From: Vulcanimicrobiota bacterium
GTDB lineage: Bacteria > Vulcanimicrobiota > Vulcanimicrobiia > Vulcanimicrobiales > Vulcanimicrobiaceae
Assembly: GCA_027315245.1 (NCBI GenBank)
Contig: DAHUYK010000052.1
Location: forward strand, 1-44,928
Length of the DNA stretch: 44,928 bases
Reading direction: 5' to 3'
Shown here piece by piece: positions 29,899 to 34,404 of this stretch; position 1 is the stretch's first letter; every line of letters begins with the position of its first letter. The notes beneath the pieces are model-generated. The model was not told where the DNA came from, ran no database searches, and saw only the letters and a program-made list of their open reading frames with translations. A program made the translations under genes and the position numbers.

Positions 29899-31548
29899 GT
29901 GAGACCGTTTTTCGTCGGGAGTCTTCTCACGTGCGCAATCGTCGCGTTGTCGGCGCACGCATTCGGACAGGCAACGCCTGCTCCGTCGCCGACGGCTACG
30001 CCGCTCACGACGGCAACGCCGTTGAGCGCCCCTGTGCCCAGCGTCTCGCCCACGCCCACGCCGACGCCAACCCCAACGCCCGCGCCGACTCCCCCTCCGA
30101 TCATCGTCTCGCCGGCAGCGGCGCAGGCGCCCGTCGGTGTTCCGCGGCAGCTCAGCGTAAGCAGCGCAATCTCGCCGATTACCGCCGTTGCCAACGACCC
30201 GTCGATCGTCGACGTCGCGGTCGATCAAGCGGCGATGACCGTCACGCTCACCGGCAAGCTTCCCGGAACGACGACGATCGTCATCAGCGACGCGCGTGGG
30301 CTCACGAAAGACGTTCCGGTGACCGTTGCCTACGAAGCGGGCACGATCGCGCCATCGTTGGACCTGCGCATCACCGGCAATCCGGCGTCCGCGGACTTCG
30401 TGCGTGAAACCGTTGCTGGCGCGGTCGCGGCCGCGACGCGCGTGCTGCCCGGCGCACAGGTCATCGTCGGCCCCGACGACGTTGCGTTCAGCGGAACGCT
30501 CGGTGAAGACGATGCCGCCGACGTCGCGACAAACGTCTTGGTGCAAGGCGAGCAGTACTTCAGCGTCAGCGGCACGACGCACGTGCGCGTCGAGAATCTG
30601 GCGGTGCCGCGCATAGCGCCGGACCGCCTCATGGTGAGCGATTATCCGGAGCAGCTCACCGAGAACGGCGTGCTCTTTACGGCGACCCTTCGCCCGCAAG
30701 CCCCGTCACGGTTTTTGTTCTTTCACTATGATCCGCCGTCACAACCCGATCGCCGCATCGTGCTGCGCGCGCAGAACGACAGCGATGAGCCCGCGCTCGT
30801 GCAGCTCACCTCCGGAACCGGACCGGCGACGACGAACGAGATGGAGACCGGACACGATGCGGATCGCATCTTTCTCGTGCGCACGATTCAAAACGAAGGC
30901 CGCCTCATCACGATCGGACCGCACGCCGCAACGAACCTCGTCCAAGCCGACCTTCCGCACGGAACCGTCATCAGCTCACTCCTGCAGCTGCGCGTGCTCT
31001 CCGGCGACGCAATCGGGTTGACGCTCTTCGCGCAGGGCGAGAATGAAGATCCTAACGCCCCCGTCACGCAGACGGAGCTGCTCGCCGGCGTCTCACATCA
31101 CGCCCGCGGAATCTACAGCGTGCCCGAGTTTCATCAGGAGGTGTCGTGGTCCGTCAACGATCCGTACCTCGACCTGCGCGTCGGGCAGCTTCCGCTGCAG
31201 AACAGCCTGCAAGGCGAAGCGCTCTCGGGCGATTACGGCGTTCTCCAGTCGTTCGTCATCACGATCGAGAATCCGAACGCGCAACCGCAGCGTGTGGCAC
31301 TCTACGAGAACCCACGCGGCGGACGCGCCACCGGCACGTATCTCATCGACGGCGTCCTCGTCCAGTCGCACCAGGTTCCTGCGTTTTCACGCTACAAAAT
31401 TCGCCAGTACGTCGTTCCGGCGCGGGGCTTCGTTCGCGTCACGCTCGAAACGATGCCCGAAGGCGGGTCGAGCTATCCGCTCGACATCATCGTCGCACCC
31501 GACGACGGCAGCGTTCCCCCGGGTGCGCCCGGCTCACCCGTGTACTGA
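29899..31548 (+). CDS. Exported protein with Thr/Pro linker and Ig-like region, unknown function
   Basis: 549 residues from a GTG at 29899 preceded by GGAG. Signal peptide (1-24, cleavage near AFG-QA), then a low-complexity Thr/Pro/Ser/Ala linker (about 25-68, with TPTPTPTPTPAPTPP). Residues ~68-145 look like a bacterial Ig-like (Big2/CpaC N-terminal type) beta sandwich: DPSIVDVAVDQAAMTVTLTGKLPGTTTIVISDARG. A BON-like alpha/beta segment may follow (about 150-205), and the rest is a large beta-rich domain without a motif I know. The layout suggests a surface or periplasmic structural protein. Its last 15 nt overlap the convergent glycosyltransferase gene. Confidence 0.6.
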   Translation: MRPFFVGSLLTCAIVALSAHAFGQATPAPSPTATPLTTATPLSAPVPSVSPTPTPTPTPTPAPTPPPIIVSPAAAQAPVGVPRQLSVSSAISPITAVANDPSIVDVAVDQAAMTVTLTGKLPGTTTIVISDARGLTKDVPVTVAYEAGTIAPSLDLRITGNPASADFVRETVAGAVAAATRVLPGAQVIVGPDDVAFSGTLGEDDAADVATNVLVQGEQYFSVSGTTHVRVENLAVPRIAPDRLMVSDYPEQLTENGVLFTATLRPQAPSRFLFFHYDPPSQPDRRIVLRAQNDSDEPALVQLTSGTGPATTNEMETGHDADRIFLVRTIQNEGRLITIGPHAATNLVQADLPHGTVISSLLQLRVLSGDAIGLTLFAQGENEDPNAPVTQTELLAGVSHHARGIYSVPEFHQEVSWSVNDPYLDLRVGQLPLQNSLQGEALSGDYGVLQSFVITIENPNAQPQRVALYENPRGGRATGTYLIDGVLVQSHQVPAFSRYKIRQYVVPARGFVRVTLETMPEGGSSYPLDIIVAPDDGSVPPGAPGSPVY

Positions 31549-32568
31549 CGCGCCGGCGACGCTGGCGTACAGGCCTGCGACGGCGCGCGCGGCGACCGTC
31601 CACGAGAAACGTGCGCCGGCTGCGCTGCGAACGTCCGCAGCGAATGCGTCGCGCTCGCCGGCAAGCACCGCGCGCAGTGCCTCCACCCAAGCCGGCACAT
31701 CATCGAGTGCGACGACGTGAGCATCGCCCGCTGCGACCTCCGGAAGAGATGCGCGGTCGCTGGCGACACACGGGAGACCGGCGCACAGCGCCTGCGCGAC
31801 GGCGTAGCCGAAGCCCTCGTATGTCGACGGCACGACCGCAGCAGCAGCGGTCGCATAGAGATCGAGCAGACGGTCGCGTTCCACGTATCCGAGAAACTCG
31901 ACGCGCCCGTCTACCCCCAAGGAGCGCGCGCGCGCGCGACACGCATCAAGGTATGGCGTCGAAGGTCCAACGCTCACGATGCGCGCGCCCGGAAGCCGTG
32001 CGAGCAACTCTATGGCGAACGTGAGGTTCTTACGCGGCTCGACCGTGCCGGCGACGAGCAGCGTTCGCCCGTCAGGACGGCGCTCGCGCAGTGCGAATGC
32101 CCTGTCGACGCCCGGTGCGACGACGTGCACGCGCGCTGGCTCGAGCGACGGCTGCACCGCTAGGAGTTCTCGTTTAGAGAAGTCGGAGTCGGCGATCACG
32201 AGATCGGCTTTCGCGTACTGCGTGAGAGCAACGGAACCGAAATAGCGTTGCGCGTACCACGGGGCATGCTGTTGCACGCGCGACCACGCGACGTCGTGCA
32301 CCGTCACGATCGTGGGGAGGGACCGGCGCAATGGCATCGTCCCCGACGCGCAGTGCAGCAGCGCAGCGCCGCTGCGCGCGGCGCGGCGACCGAGCAGGAA
32401 CTGGTCCCAAAGGAGCCGCCGGTCGAATCGCCACGGATCGAGCGCCGGTTCAGCGAGTTCGACGACGTCGACGCCCGCTGCGCGCAAGGCGGGCGCGAGA
32501 CCGCGAACGTACTCGCCGATTCCCGTCGGCGTGCCGATCGCCAACTGCGCATCGAGCGCGACCTTCAT
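31534..32568 (-). CDS. Glycosyltransferase family 4 (GT-B fold)
   Basis: 344 residues. N-terminal GT-B domain begins MKVALDAQLAIGTPTGIGEYVRGLAPAL, with the TGIGEY donor/acceptor-loop form common in GT4. C-terminal domain has LLVAGTVEPRKNLTFAIELL and STYEGFGYAVAQALCAGLPCVAS. In the EX7E motif the second Glu is Gln (EGFGYAVAQ), an uncommon change in a residue that helps bind the nucleotide-sugar. No membrane helix. It starts in ATGA overlap with the upstream gene at the end of the long envelope operon, so a role in polysaccharide or LPS sugar assembly is likely (inference); the sugar is unknown. Confidence 0.85.
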   Translation of the reverse strand: MKVALDAQLAIGTPTGIGEYVRGLAPALRAAGVDVVELAEPALDPWRFDRRLLWDQFLLGRRAARSGAALLHCASGTMPLRRSLPTIVTVHDVAWSRVQQHAPWYAQRYFGSVALTQYAKADLVIADSDFSKRELLAVQPSLEPARVHVVAPGVDRAFALRERRPDGRTLLVAGTVEPRKNLTFAIELLARLPGARIVSVGPSTPYLDACRARARSLGVDGRVEFLGYVERDRLLDLYATAAAAVVPSTYEGFGYAVAQALCAGLPCVASDRASLPEVAAGDAHVVALDDVPAWVEALRAVLAGERDAFAADVRSAAGARFSWTVAARAVAGLYASVAGASVHG

Positions 32569-33278
32569 GGAAGCAAAGCGCTAGGATCGACGGCACGGAC
32601 GCGGCGGTAGTACCGGCGCGCGGTCTTAAGTTCACCGGCGTGGCTCGCAGCAGCGGCGGCCGCAAGCAGATATTTCACCGAGAGCGGCGCGAGACGGGCT
32701 GCTGCGCTCGCGTCCCGCAAAGAGCGGCGGAGCCACGAACGCCGAGCCGGGCCGCCGCGCAGCGCGCAGCGCGCTGCGAACGTGCTCATCGTCCAACTCG
32801 CCTCGGCAACGGAGTCGGGATGCGTGCGCAACGCGACGAAGCGATCGCGCACGCGGCGCTCGAAGGCGTACGCCTGTGCCGGATCGTCGCGGGCGATGCG
32901 GTGCGCCTCGTGCTGCAGCGCGACGAAGTCCGGAGCTGCAAAAAAGTATTCGCGAGCGAGAACCGGATCGCCGGAGCGCAACGCGATGCGGCCGAGCAGT
33001 TCGTTGCGTACGGCGCGCGGTGGAAGGCGGAGCGCGTACCGCTGCGCTGCCGCAAGATGACCCCGATCGAGCTCGTAGGTGGCTAGGCTGGCTTCGACGT
33101 ATTCGGCCGGCGCGACGCGGTCGAGAAAGCGATAGACGCGAAGTCCTATGCCGGTCGGCACGCGAGACGCAAGCGAGAACGGCGCCGCTGCGCCGGCATA
33201 GAGCGCGTCCGATGCCGCCTGCACGACCCCGAACGCGAGCAGCACGACGCCGATAATCGCGTAGATGACGATGCGCAC
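32565..33278 (-). CDS. Membrane-anchored helical-repeat protein, unknown function
   Basis: 237 residues from a GTG at 33278. One N-terminal hydrophobic helix (3-23), then a soluble region made almost only of Ala/Arg/Leu-rich helices with TPR-like pairs (ATYELDRGHLAAAQRYALRLP; LAREYFFAAPDFVALQHEAHRIA; AAASHAGELKTARRYYRRVRAVDPSA). TPR domains usually serve as protein docking scaffolds; here the partner is unknown. The stop overlaps the glycosyltransferase ATG (ATGA), so the two are co-translated. A MITE lies 19 nt upstream of the start and separates it from the rest of the operon. Confidence 0.6.
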   Translation of the reverse strand: MRIVIYAIIGVVLLAFGVVQAASDALYAGAAAPFSLASRVPTGIGLRVYRFLDRVAPAEYVEASLATYELDRGHLAAAQRYALRLPPRAVRNELLGRIALRSGDPVLAREYFFAAPDFVALQHEAHRIARDDPAQAYAFERRVRDRFVALRTHPDSVAEASWTMSTFAARCALRGGPARRSWLRRSLRDASAAARLAPLSVKYLLAAAAAASHAGELKTARRYYRRVRAVDPSALLP

Positions 33279-33297
33279 GCCTCGCGGAGGGTTCCTA

Positions 33298-33460
33298 GGA
33301 GCCTGTAGGGCTATGGCCGTTTTCGGATTTGGTGCCGCATTTTGTTCGGAGGGGAGGCGCGAAGAGGGAGTGAAGCCGTAGCTTCATGACCGATGAGCAA
33401 CGAAGTATTCGGATAAAGGGCGGCCCAAAGACGGAACTGTGCCATAACCCTACAGGCTCC
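33298..33460. mobile_element. MITE-like non-autonomous element, 163 bp, TA duplication
   Basis: The ends are inverted repeats: GGAGCCTGTAGGGCTATGGC (33298-33317) and the complement of GGAGCCTGTAGGGTTATGGC (33441-33460), one mismatch in 20. Weaker similarity runs on to about 41 bp (TTTGGnGCCGC shared). A TA flanks each side (33296-33297 and 33461-33462), inside CTAG on both sides, the target and duplication used by IS630/Tc1-mariner elements. The 120-bp interior has no open frame, and holds a hairpin GAAGC-CGTA-GCTTC (about 33382-33395). It is most likely a MITE moved by a transposase elsewhere in the genome. Confidence 0.72.
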
Positions 33461-34404
33461 TAGAACTTGACGGTGAGGTTCAGGTCTTCGCGCAGTTGCG
33501 TGAACTCCGCCGGTACGAGGTTATCTTGGTACCTGTACTGTTGGGCGGAGAGGGAAAGCGCGCTCGAGAGTCGCGGAAACAGAAATGTGAGATTCCCGGA
33601 GTACGTGTCGTTGCGCGCATCGAGGCCGGCGAGCGTCGACGGCATTCCATATCCCGTCACGAGGCGTTCGGTATTGTAACCGAGCCCGACGAGCAAGCGC
33701 GGCGCGATCGGCACTGCAATGTGCGCGCCGAGCGACGAGCGGTTGACCGCGGCATACGGCGGGATGAAGACGGGAAGCGTATCGTCGATGCCGCTCGCCG
33801 TCGTTGCCAGCCCGGCATCGAATCCCGCGATGAGCCGAAGGTTGCCGACACGAAGCGCGACGGGCAACTGCACGCTGGAGCCGAGGTTCGGCACGGCATC
33901 ACCCCCGCTCTGGAGAGCACTCTGCACGACGAAGGCGGGAACGGTAGGACGCGGAGCGCGCATGAAGGAGAAGGCATCCGAACCAATCCCGCCCGAAAGG
34001 AATGCCGGCGCCGCCGGCTCGTACGACGACGTCACGGATTCGGCGCTCGCTCCAACGAACGCAGGCGCCGCGACCCGAGGCGGAGCGGGAGCGGCGGCAA
34101 ACGCAGTGCGCGATGGGAGCGCGAGGCGCGCGATCGTCACAGAGCGCATTGGCGTCGCCCGACCCTCGCAGCACGAACTCGCCGTATCGATGCGAACGAC
34201 GAACGCAGCCTGGCGCAAGGGAGAGTCGAAGCCGGCGTGCCAACCGGCGAACGTGAGCGGCGTTTGGGCGTCGGAGACTTCGCCGAAGAGGCGCAGCATC
34301 AACAGCCTTGGGACGTTGGGCGCCGCAGGCAAACGCGCAGCGGTCGCCGTCACCGGGACGGCAATGAGAACCGCGGCAAAAAACCACCCGACGTAGCGGC
34401 GCAC
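33460..34404 (-). CDS. Probable outer-membrane beta-barrel protein
   Basis: 314 residues from a GTG at 34404 with AGGAGG 4-5 nt upstream. Signal peptide (about 1-24), a Pro/Ala-rich variable region with two adjacent Cys (SSCCEG), then alternating hydrophobic/polar strands in the second half (LRLIAGFDAGLATTASGI; LGAHIAVPIAPRLLVGLGYN; YSGNLTFLFPRLSSALSLSAQQYRYQDN) and a terminal Phe (LNLTVKF), the usual barrel C-terminal signal. Its role is unknown; the position at the end of the lpt block suggests an envelope function. The stop codon TAG consists of the TA target duplication of the MITE plus the first base of the element. The end of the protein therefore appears intact. Confidence 0.55.
   Translation of the reverse strand: MRRYVGWFFAAVLIAVPVTATAARLPAAPNVPRLLMLRLFGEVSDAQTPLTFAGWHAGFDSPLRQAAFVVRIDTASSCCEGRATPMRSVTIARLALPSRTAFAAAPAPPRVAAPAFVGASAESVTSSYEPAAPAFLSGGIGSDAFSFMRAPRPTVPAFVVQSALQSGGDAVPNLGSSVQLPVALRVGNLRLIAGFDAGLATTASGIDDTLPVFIPPYAAVNRSSLGAHIAVPIAPRLLVGLGYNTERLVTGYGMPSTLAGLDARNDTYSGNLTFLFPRLSSALSLSAQQYRYQDNLVPAEFTQLREDLNLTVKF

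Follow-up and report, generated by a model that had tools for sequence, protein, structure and literature searches.

The genome of a Vulcanimicrobiota bacterium carries a 163-bp foldable repeat exactly at the stop codon of a gene, and the question raised by this locus is whether such a sequence is a mobile element that landed there or an RNA structure belonging to the surrounding operon, and why it should be found at a stop codon. The window, by which we mean the whole stretch of 44,928 nucleotides analysed, corresponds to contig C133 in a draft assembly of 2.12 Mb; its features are collected in Table 1. Direct reading agreed with the original prediction of an element with inverted ends and TA duplications, placed directly after the last Phe codon of the gene so that the TAG stop consists of the TA duplication and the element's first base. 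Across the insertion the plus strand reads GGTTC-C-TA-[GGAGCCTGTAGGGCTATGGC ... GCCATAACCCTACAGGCTCC]-TA-G-AACTT, both flanking TA dinucleotides sit in CTAG, and the inverted ends differ by a single C/T mismatch at base 14 of the first 20. The plus strand of the element is predicted to fold with an energy of -91.7 kcal/mol (z = -10.35 relative to 200 shuffles), and the transcribed minus strand with -70 kcal/mol.

Table 1. Features at and around the insertion, in positions of the window
Feature	Position	Strand	Remarks
Left TA target duplication	33296..33297	.	within CTAG 33295-33298; TA-only inferred from copies with unlike outer bases
MITE1 element, 163 bp	33298..33460	+	+ denotes the strand with the G/A-rich core
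Left terminal inverted repeat	33298..33317	+	
Right terminal inverted repeat	33441..33460	-	19/20 identical to left
Right TA target duplication	33461..33462	.	first two stop-codon bases on the minus strand
TAG stop of barrel-like gene	33460..33462	-	TA duplication plus element's first base; TAG judged ancestral from G002
Conserved core (model R1)	33355..33404	+	79.8 bits; apical 6-bp stem, three tandem G-A motifs, covarying pairs
Upstream 'barrel-like' gene, 332 aa	33460..34458	-	conserved C-terminal LTVKF; no Pfam match
Downstream gene, 237 aa	32565..33278	-	similar gene next in most relatives printed
Glycosyltransferase gene	31534..32568	-	Pfam Glyco_trans_1_4, Glycos_transf_1

The label 'barrel-like' for the 332-aa gene comes from the original prediction. 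The 3′ end of this gene reads GTC AAG TTC TAG on the minus strand, and the next start, a GTG read directly at position 33278, lies 19 nt past the element, as had been stated; the glycosyltransferase placed beyond it is borne out by its Pfam matches. The gap from stop to start measures 184 nt in the window versus about 10-60 nt in most relatives. The barrel-like gene was present in 45/60 relatives, and wherever its 3′ end was printed (19 relatives) the protein ended in Lys-Phe, in accordance with the claim that the C-terminal Phe is kept; no insert was detected at the stop in any of these 19, whose stop codons were TAG in 9, TGA in 9 and TAA in 1. A relative with an empty CTAG site, the comparison that the original prediction had proposed, was found within the same genus: in G002 (L086) the sequence is AAGTTC-TAG-GAAGTCCC-ATG, with the TAG already there. 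Because of this empty site we rejected the possibility that the element brought its own stop. Judging from the same comparison, the TAG of the barrel-like gene is ancestral and was preserved by the insertion, so that the earlier statement that the TA duplication supplies the stop is right as to its composition and wrong as to its origin. In another relative, G007, the sequence after the stop, TAG-AGGCTCCCTA, resembles a remnant of a MITE end, which we regard as suggestive.

The number and location of further copies were determined with blastn in 383,322 bases of the same genome (20 contigs including the window, 18% of the genome, picked largely for carrying copies). The window family, MITE1, and a second family with other ends, MITE2 (CTAGTGGCCTGTAAC), occupied 22 dispersed, non-homologous places in these bases: 14 copies flanked on both sides, 7 truncated at contig ends and 1 short fragment. 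The window element used as a query against the whole genome gave 45 matching pieces, it was matched in 13/60 relatives, and its bases from about 43 to 112 also matched MITE2 despite the different ends. The original prediction had named a repeat without other copies that is conserved in distant relatives as the mark of a structure that does not move; the opposite was found on both counts, with many copies in the genome and no repeat at the barrel-gene stop of 19 relatives, and the prediction of a mobile element with copies elsewhere is upheld. In the same genome (G000) MITE2 copies with CTAGTGGCCTGTAACA ends and the same core were seen on contigs C18, C11, C117 and C47 (1452-1620); C18 has them at both of its ends, so that the assembly seems to have been interrupted by MITE2. 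Directly after stops at L034, L055, L387 and L402, remnants with a single end were observed, about 7-20 bp long and enclosed by two TA, the third adjoining ClpX in G007 and the fourth MoaA in G004. Such remnants look as though an element had gone and one of its ends had stayed behind, and they suggest repeated use and loss.

All complete copies in the own genome have CTAG on both sides, and for that reason a 2-bp and a 4-bp duplication cannot be told apart there. In relatives the outer bases of copies are unlike, for example TTAG/CTAG, CTAG/CTAA or TTAG/TTAA (L137, L139, L142, L062, L081), which indicates that the duplication is TA with a preference for CTAG; the outer pair was C/C in 65 of 96 distinct elements. 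On the evidence of these copies we rejected a duplication of the four bases CTAG and an IS5-type origin. The expected IS630/Tc1-type transposase with matching ends was found for the sister family, and for MITE1 there are the ends of a longer element. L175 (G007:C189, locus 1381-2478) spans 1098 bp, has the ends of MITE2 (TAGTGGCCTGTAACA) and encodes a PF13358 (DDE_3) transposase; this IS630-type element is likely the parent of MITE2. Seven other DDE_3 elements with recognisable ends start with TAGTG, their outer pairs being C/C in six and T/C in one. A longer MITE1-like element is represented by its two ends at ten contig ends of G024 (L200-L209), where it is multi-copy and ends in CTAGGAGCCCGTCGGGGTT; its interior was searched for and not found, and a scan of 25 loci detected no MITE1-like ends. 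PF13358 was present in 6/60 and 10/99 genomes, with none found in the own genome. At L208 one copy of the longer element adjoins a third MITE family (CTAGCAGCTTGCGG), with one CTAG between both. Terminal inverted repeats, TA duplication with CTAG preference and further copies are all as expected of the predicted IS630/Tc1 class, and the window feature is very probably a MITE of IS630/Tc1-mariner type that entered at the TA of a CTAG already in place, a site formed by the end of the Phe codon and the TAG stop.

The position of the window copy is shared by most others. Stop assignments rest on a home-made codon-model gene caller, which called 361 genes covering 93% of the own sequence. Among own-genome copies with both flanks, 11/14 lie exactly at TAG stops and 3/14 lie off stops; at four of the 11, two convergent genes both stop in one palindromic CTAG. 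The seven cut copies comprise three at a stop on the readable side, one with a stop 8 nt off and three with none. The genes flanking own copies, named by reading, include ClpX, MoaA (with an EIGG end), AroB and RecX, besides others. Where the end could be read in genus relatives, ClpX finishes at an identical residue in 7/7 and MoaA at GG in 5/5, with TAG, TAA or TGA as stops, and the C-termini at the barrel-like gene, ClpX and MoaA are unaltered compared with relatives.

Similar results were obtained in a wider count of distinct core-bearing elements, defined as inverted repeats between TA, with up to 3 mismatches allowed in 14 and at least 350 bp on both sides, in the collected loci with Bacteroidota left out (n = 96). 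Of these, 61 are at one stop, 5 at two stops, 18 intergenic and none inside a gene; in the other 12, a gene runs into the element (6) or the element overlaps a called gene start (6). The 325 native CTAG sites of these loci are at one stop in 49 cases, at two stops in 2, intergenic in 65 and in genes in 209. Fisher tests of elements versus native CTAG gave p = 2e-22 for stops versus all other positions and p = 1.2e-6 for stops versus intergenic positions, both values being optimistic because copies with common descent are not independent. A stricter count in seven relatives, restricted to CTAG, had placed 21/48 copies at a stop (8/14 in G026, 8/14 in G033, 2/12 in G007 and 3/8 in the rest) and 1 within a called gene. 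TA+G stops outside CTAG escaped this count, which the count of 96 supersedes. Among autonomous IS630 elements 1/8 was at a stop.

A simple sequence of events would produce this pattern. An IS630-type MITE, moved in trans by a putative IS630-type transposase, would enter the TA of the CTAG made by the Phe codon end and TAG of the barrel-like gene. Each end of the element contributes a G next to the duplicated TA, so that a TAA or a TAG stop that receives an insertion reads TAG afterwards. The stop would thereby be re-created on both sides, serving one gene or two convergent genes, and stop codons would act as safe sites at which surviving copies pile up.

The part that MITE1 and MITE2 have in common contains a core of roughly 38 nt, for which we predict stacked tandem G-A pairs with covarying pairs between them. 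An alignment was built from 47 of 65 distinct 50-mers; left out were 8 near-duplicates of kept rows, L330 from Myxococcota (by eye a chance match) and nine divergent or shifted cores (L150, L152, L158, L159, L160, L161, L163, L164 and L310), omissions that tilt the following pairing figures somewhat in favour of pairing. In the 47 aligned cores 97.3% of 517 cells can form the proposed pairs, both partners are changed in 73 cells (24.0 when shuffled, at most 4 when slid), and the covariation is 0.421 versus at most 0.08 when slid. Pair 9-40 is A-U in 33 cores and U-A in 11, and pair 12-37 is G-C in 33 and A-U in 10; both stand between tandem G-A motifs. The columns G7, G10, G13, G14, A15, G34, A35, G38, A39, G41 and A42 are invariant, and A8 and A11 are conserved at 90% or more. 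Folded with RNA parameters, the window core has a minimum-energy structure close to the proposed one; DNA parameters yield the inner part alone, and the opposite strand lacks the proposed fold. A comparison of window positions 33000-33800 with Rfam (release 15) gave 0 matches at E up to 1.

The core is not restricted to the two families. A motif scan of the loci placed it between at least eight kinds of ends, several of them based on one locus apiece: TAGGAGSCTGTMGG, TAGTGGCCTGTAAC, TA(A/G)CAGSTTGCGGA, TAGTGTCCCGAGCC, TAGTGTCTCGCAAG, TAGTGTCATGAACC, TAGGGTGCCRAGCG, TAATGCGCCGCGCC and single others. A scan with a 38-base pattern, in which partners were not forced to agree, covered one genome per species and returned at least 106 stretches, mostly from Eremiobacterota and other MAGs; judging by the labels of these carriers, the window genome probably belongs to the Eremiobacterota (phylum Vulcanimicrobiota). 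Among the matches listed were one from Myxococcota, which looks like chance, and five from Bacteroidota (Paramuribaculum intestinale DSM 100749, Paramuribaculum, Muribaculum, another Muribaculaceae and a Saprospiraceae bacterium). Model R1 detected the core in 53/149 Vulcanimicrobiota genomes (E up to 1e-6). At E up to 0.001 the five Bacteroidota genomes gave 52, 7, 33, 13 and 12 matches, of which the weaker ones are uncertain, the 33 being those of the cultured Paramuribaculum intestinale; in 296 evenly drawn Bacteroidota genomes 2 matched R1 (E up to 1e-6, stricter filters), one of them the centre itself. The Muribaculaceae core elements (L338-L375) have ends such as GAGATTGTCTAAA and GAAACTGTTTAAA, which we take to be IS5-like, with TTA-like flanks; in 9/15 examined, an end lies no more than 12 nt from a called stop. 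None of 27 loci that carry DDE_3 or adjoin such loci was matched by R1 at E up to 1, though IS elements beyond this sample may have cores; the core was not found in viral contigs, and plasmids, phages and E. coli gave none or short chance-level matches. At L065, L067 and L076 the core was observed in long intergenic hairpins close after stops, without clear TA ends; these may be decayed elements or elements of a different type.

The original prediction also suggested that the element might act as an attenuator or processing site. A regulatory RNA structure of the operon, be it an attenuator, a terminator or a processing site, that separates the barrel-like gene from the genes beyond it would fit the very stable fold and the location between co-oriented genes in a widened gap. 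We nevertheless consider it highly improbable: the element is absent at the barrel-gene stop in the relatives described above, copies adjoin unrelated genes, the transcribed strand in the window is the weaker-folding one, and no terminator- or promoter-like site was seen, a GC-rich hairpin followed by a T run being found 0 times in positions 33200-33560. Over the 61 single-stop copies, moreover, the G/A core lies on the coding strand of the stop gene 30 times and on the other strand 31 times; this scripted count of distinct elements replaces an earlier hand tally of 21 same versus 14 opposite. On the strength of the orientation balance and the lack of a terminator-like site we rejected the attenuator or terminator. 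The wider gap would possibly allow a mild change in coupling between the two genes, and this would not be the element's reason for being. For an inserted MITE, the enrichment at stops could in principle be wholly a matter of target choice without selection, if CTAG is wanted and rare and TAG stops after C are its main reservoir. CTAG is indeed scarce in the 383,322 own-genome bases (204 versus 339 expected from a second-order and 1265 from a zero-order model), TAG is the commonest called stop there (150/352), and the 168 native CTAG include 49 at stops (4 of them double) and 26 in intergenic positions. The remaining 93, however, are inside genes, as against none of the 96 elements, and the contrast between stops and intergenic positions remains. 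The autonomous IS630 elements have the same target, and because so few of them are at stops a purely target-driven account is insufficient, and selection or a MITE-specific factor adds to the CTAG preference. Target choice by itself is thus an unlikely explanation, and we conclude that CTAG preference, G at both ends and selection against damage jointly account for the placement.

The balanced orientation also bears on the core, as it speaks for selection acting on the element itself and against selection through the mRNA of the neighbouring gene. We infer that the core is selected at this level, through mobilisation or persistence. Arm-to-arm copying in palindromes is a general possibility, and with the whole element being a long inverted repeat, covariation in the core might instead be a by-product of repair in which one arm is copied from the other, with no selection on the fold. 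Such copying would turn G-A into Watson-Crick pairs, yet the G-A positions are the best conserved; single pairs between the G-A motifs covary, and the core is retained among elements with unlike arms and ends. Repair is for these reasons an unlikely source of the pattern. As a tentative reading, slightly less likely than not, the core, folded on one strand, may be a portable functional module acquired by MITEs whose ends are of eight or more kinds and belong to two or more transposase classes (a TA type in Eremiobacterota and, by eye, a 3-bp-target type in Muribaculaceae). Selection would keep it because it promotes the movement or persistence of its carriers; a host or transposase factor might, for instance, be bound by it in the form of RNA or of single-stranded DNA.

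Parts of this picture are familiar from known systems. IS630 reportedly prefers CTAG as its target, a finding attributed to Tenzen and Ohtsubo in 1991. ISY100, an IS630/Tc1-mariner element reported to move by cut-and-paste, shares with the window MITE the TA duplication, the CTAG preference and the terminal inverted repeats; the window element differs from it in having no transposase, and stop placement is unmentioned in the part of the ISY100 paper used here (PMC2170065). RUP of Streptococcus pneumoniae, a 107-bp MITE, likewise has IS630-type ends and TA-containing targets, but is reported near or in IS elements, and the portions of the two sources drawn on describe no common core (PMC2229807, PMC3049150). 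The pneumococcal BOX repeat overlaps the extreme 3′ end of 36 annotated genes and encodes their stop, according to the relevant section of PMC3049150; there the stop is within the repeat, whereas the window stop combines TA with the first base of the element, and the protein keeps its C-terminus. Neither a BOX-like stop inside the repeat nor an altered C-terminus was observed at the copies compared, where C-termini are the same as in relatives. MITEPsy1 of Pseudomonas syringae inserted after CTAG or YTAA, and differs by a 4-bp duplication and a possible IS5 origin; the excerpted account gives no stop-codon pattern (PMC3189936). In a literature search of open-licence PMC papers neither a stop-codon rule for IS630-type MITEs nor this core was recognised. 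The core matched nothing known with the tools used, and the window MITE itself is of a known kind with unusually clean placement.

If the reading of the placement is true, TA-targeting elements with ends that start in G would generally be safe at stops, and this would provide a simple, testable survival rule in dense genomes that includes the palindromic CTAG of two convergent genes. MITEs are usually seen as mere deletion products of their parent elements. A core common to families with unlike ends and absent from the examined transposase-bearing elements would mean that MITEs own a selected part, for which a binding partner could be searched, and the core of about 38 nt would then be a new kind of common part among otherwise unrelated bacterial mobile elements.
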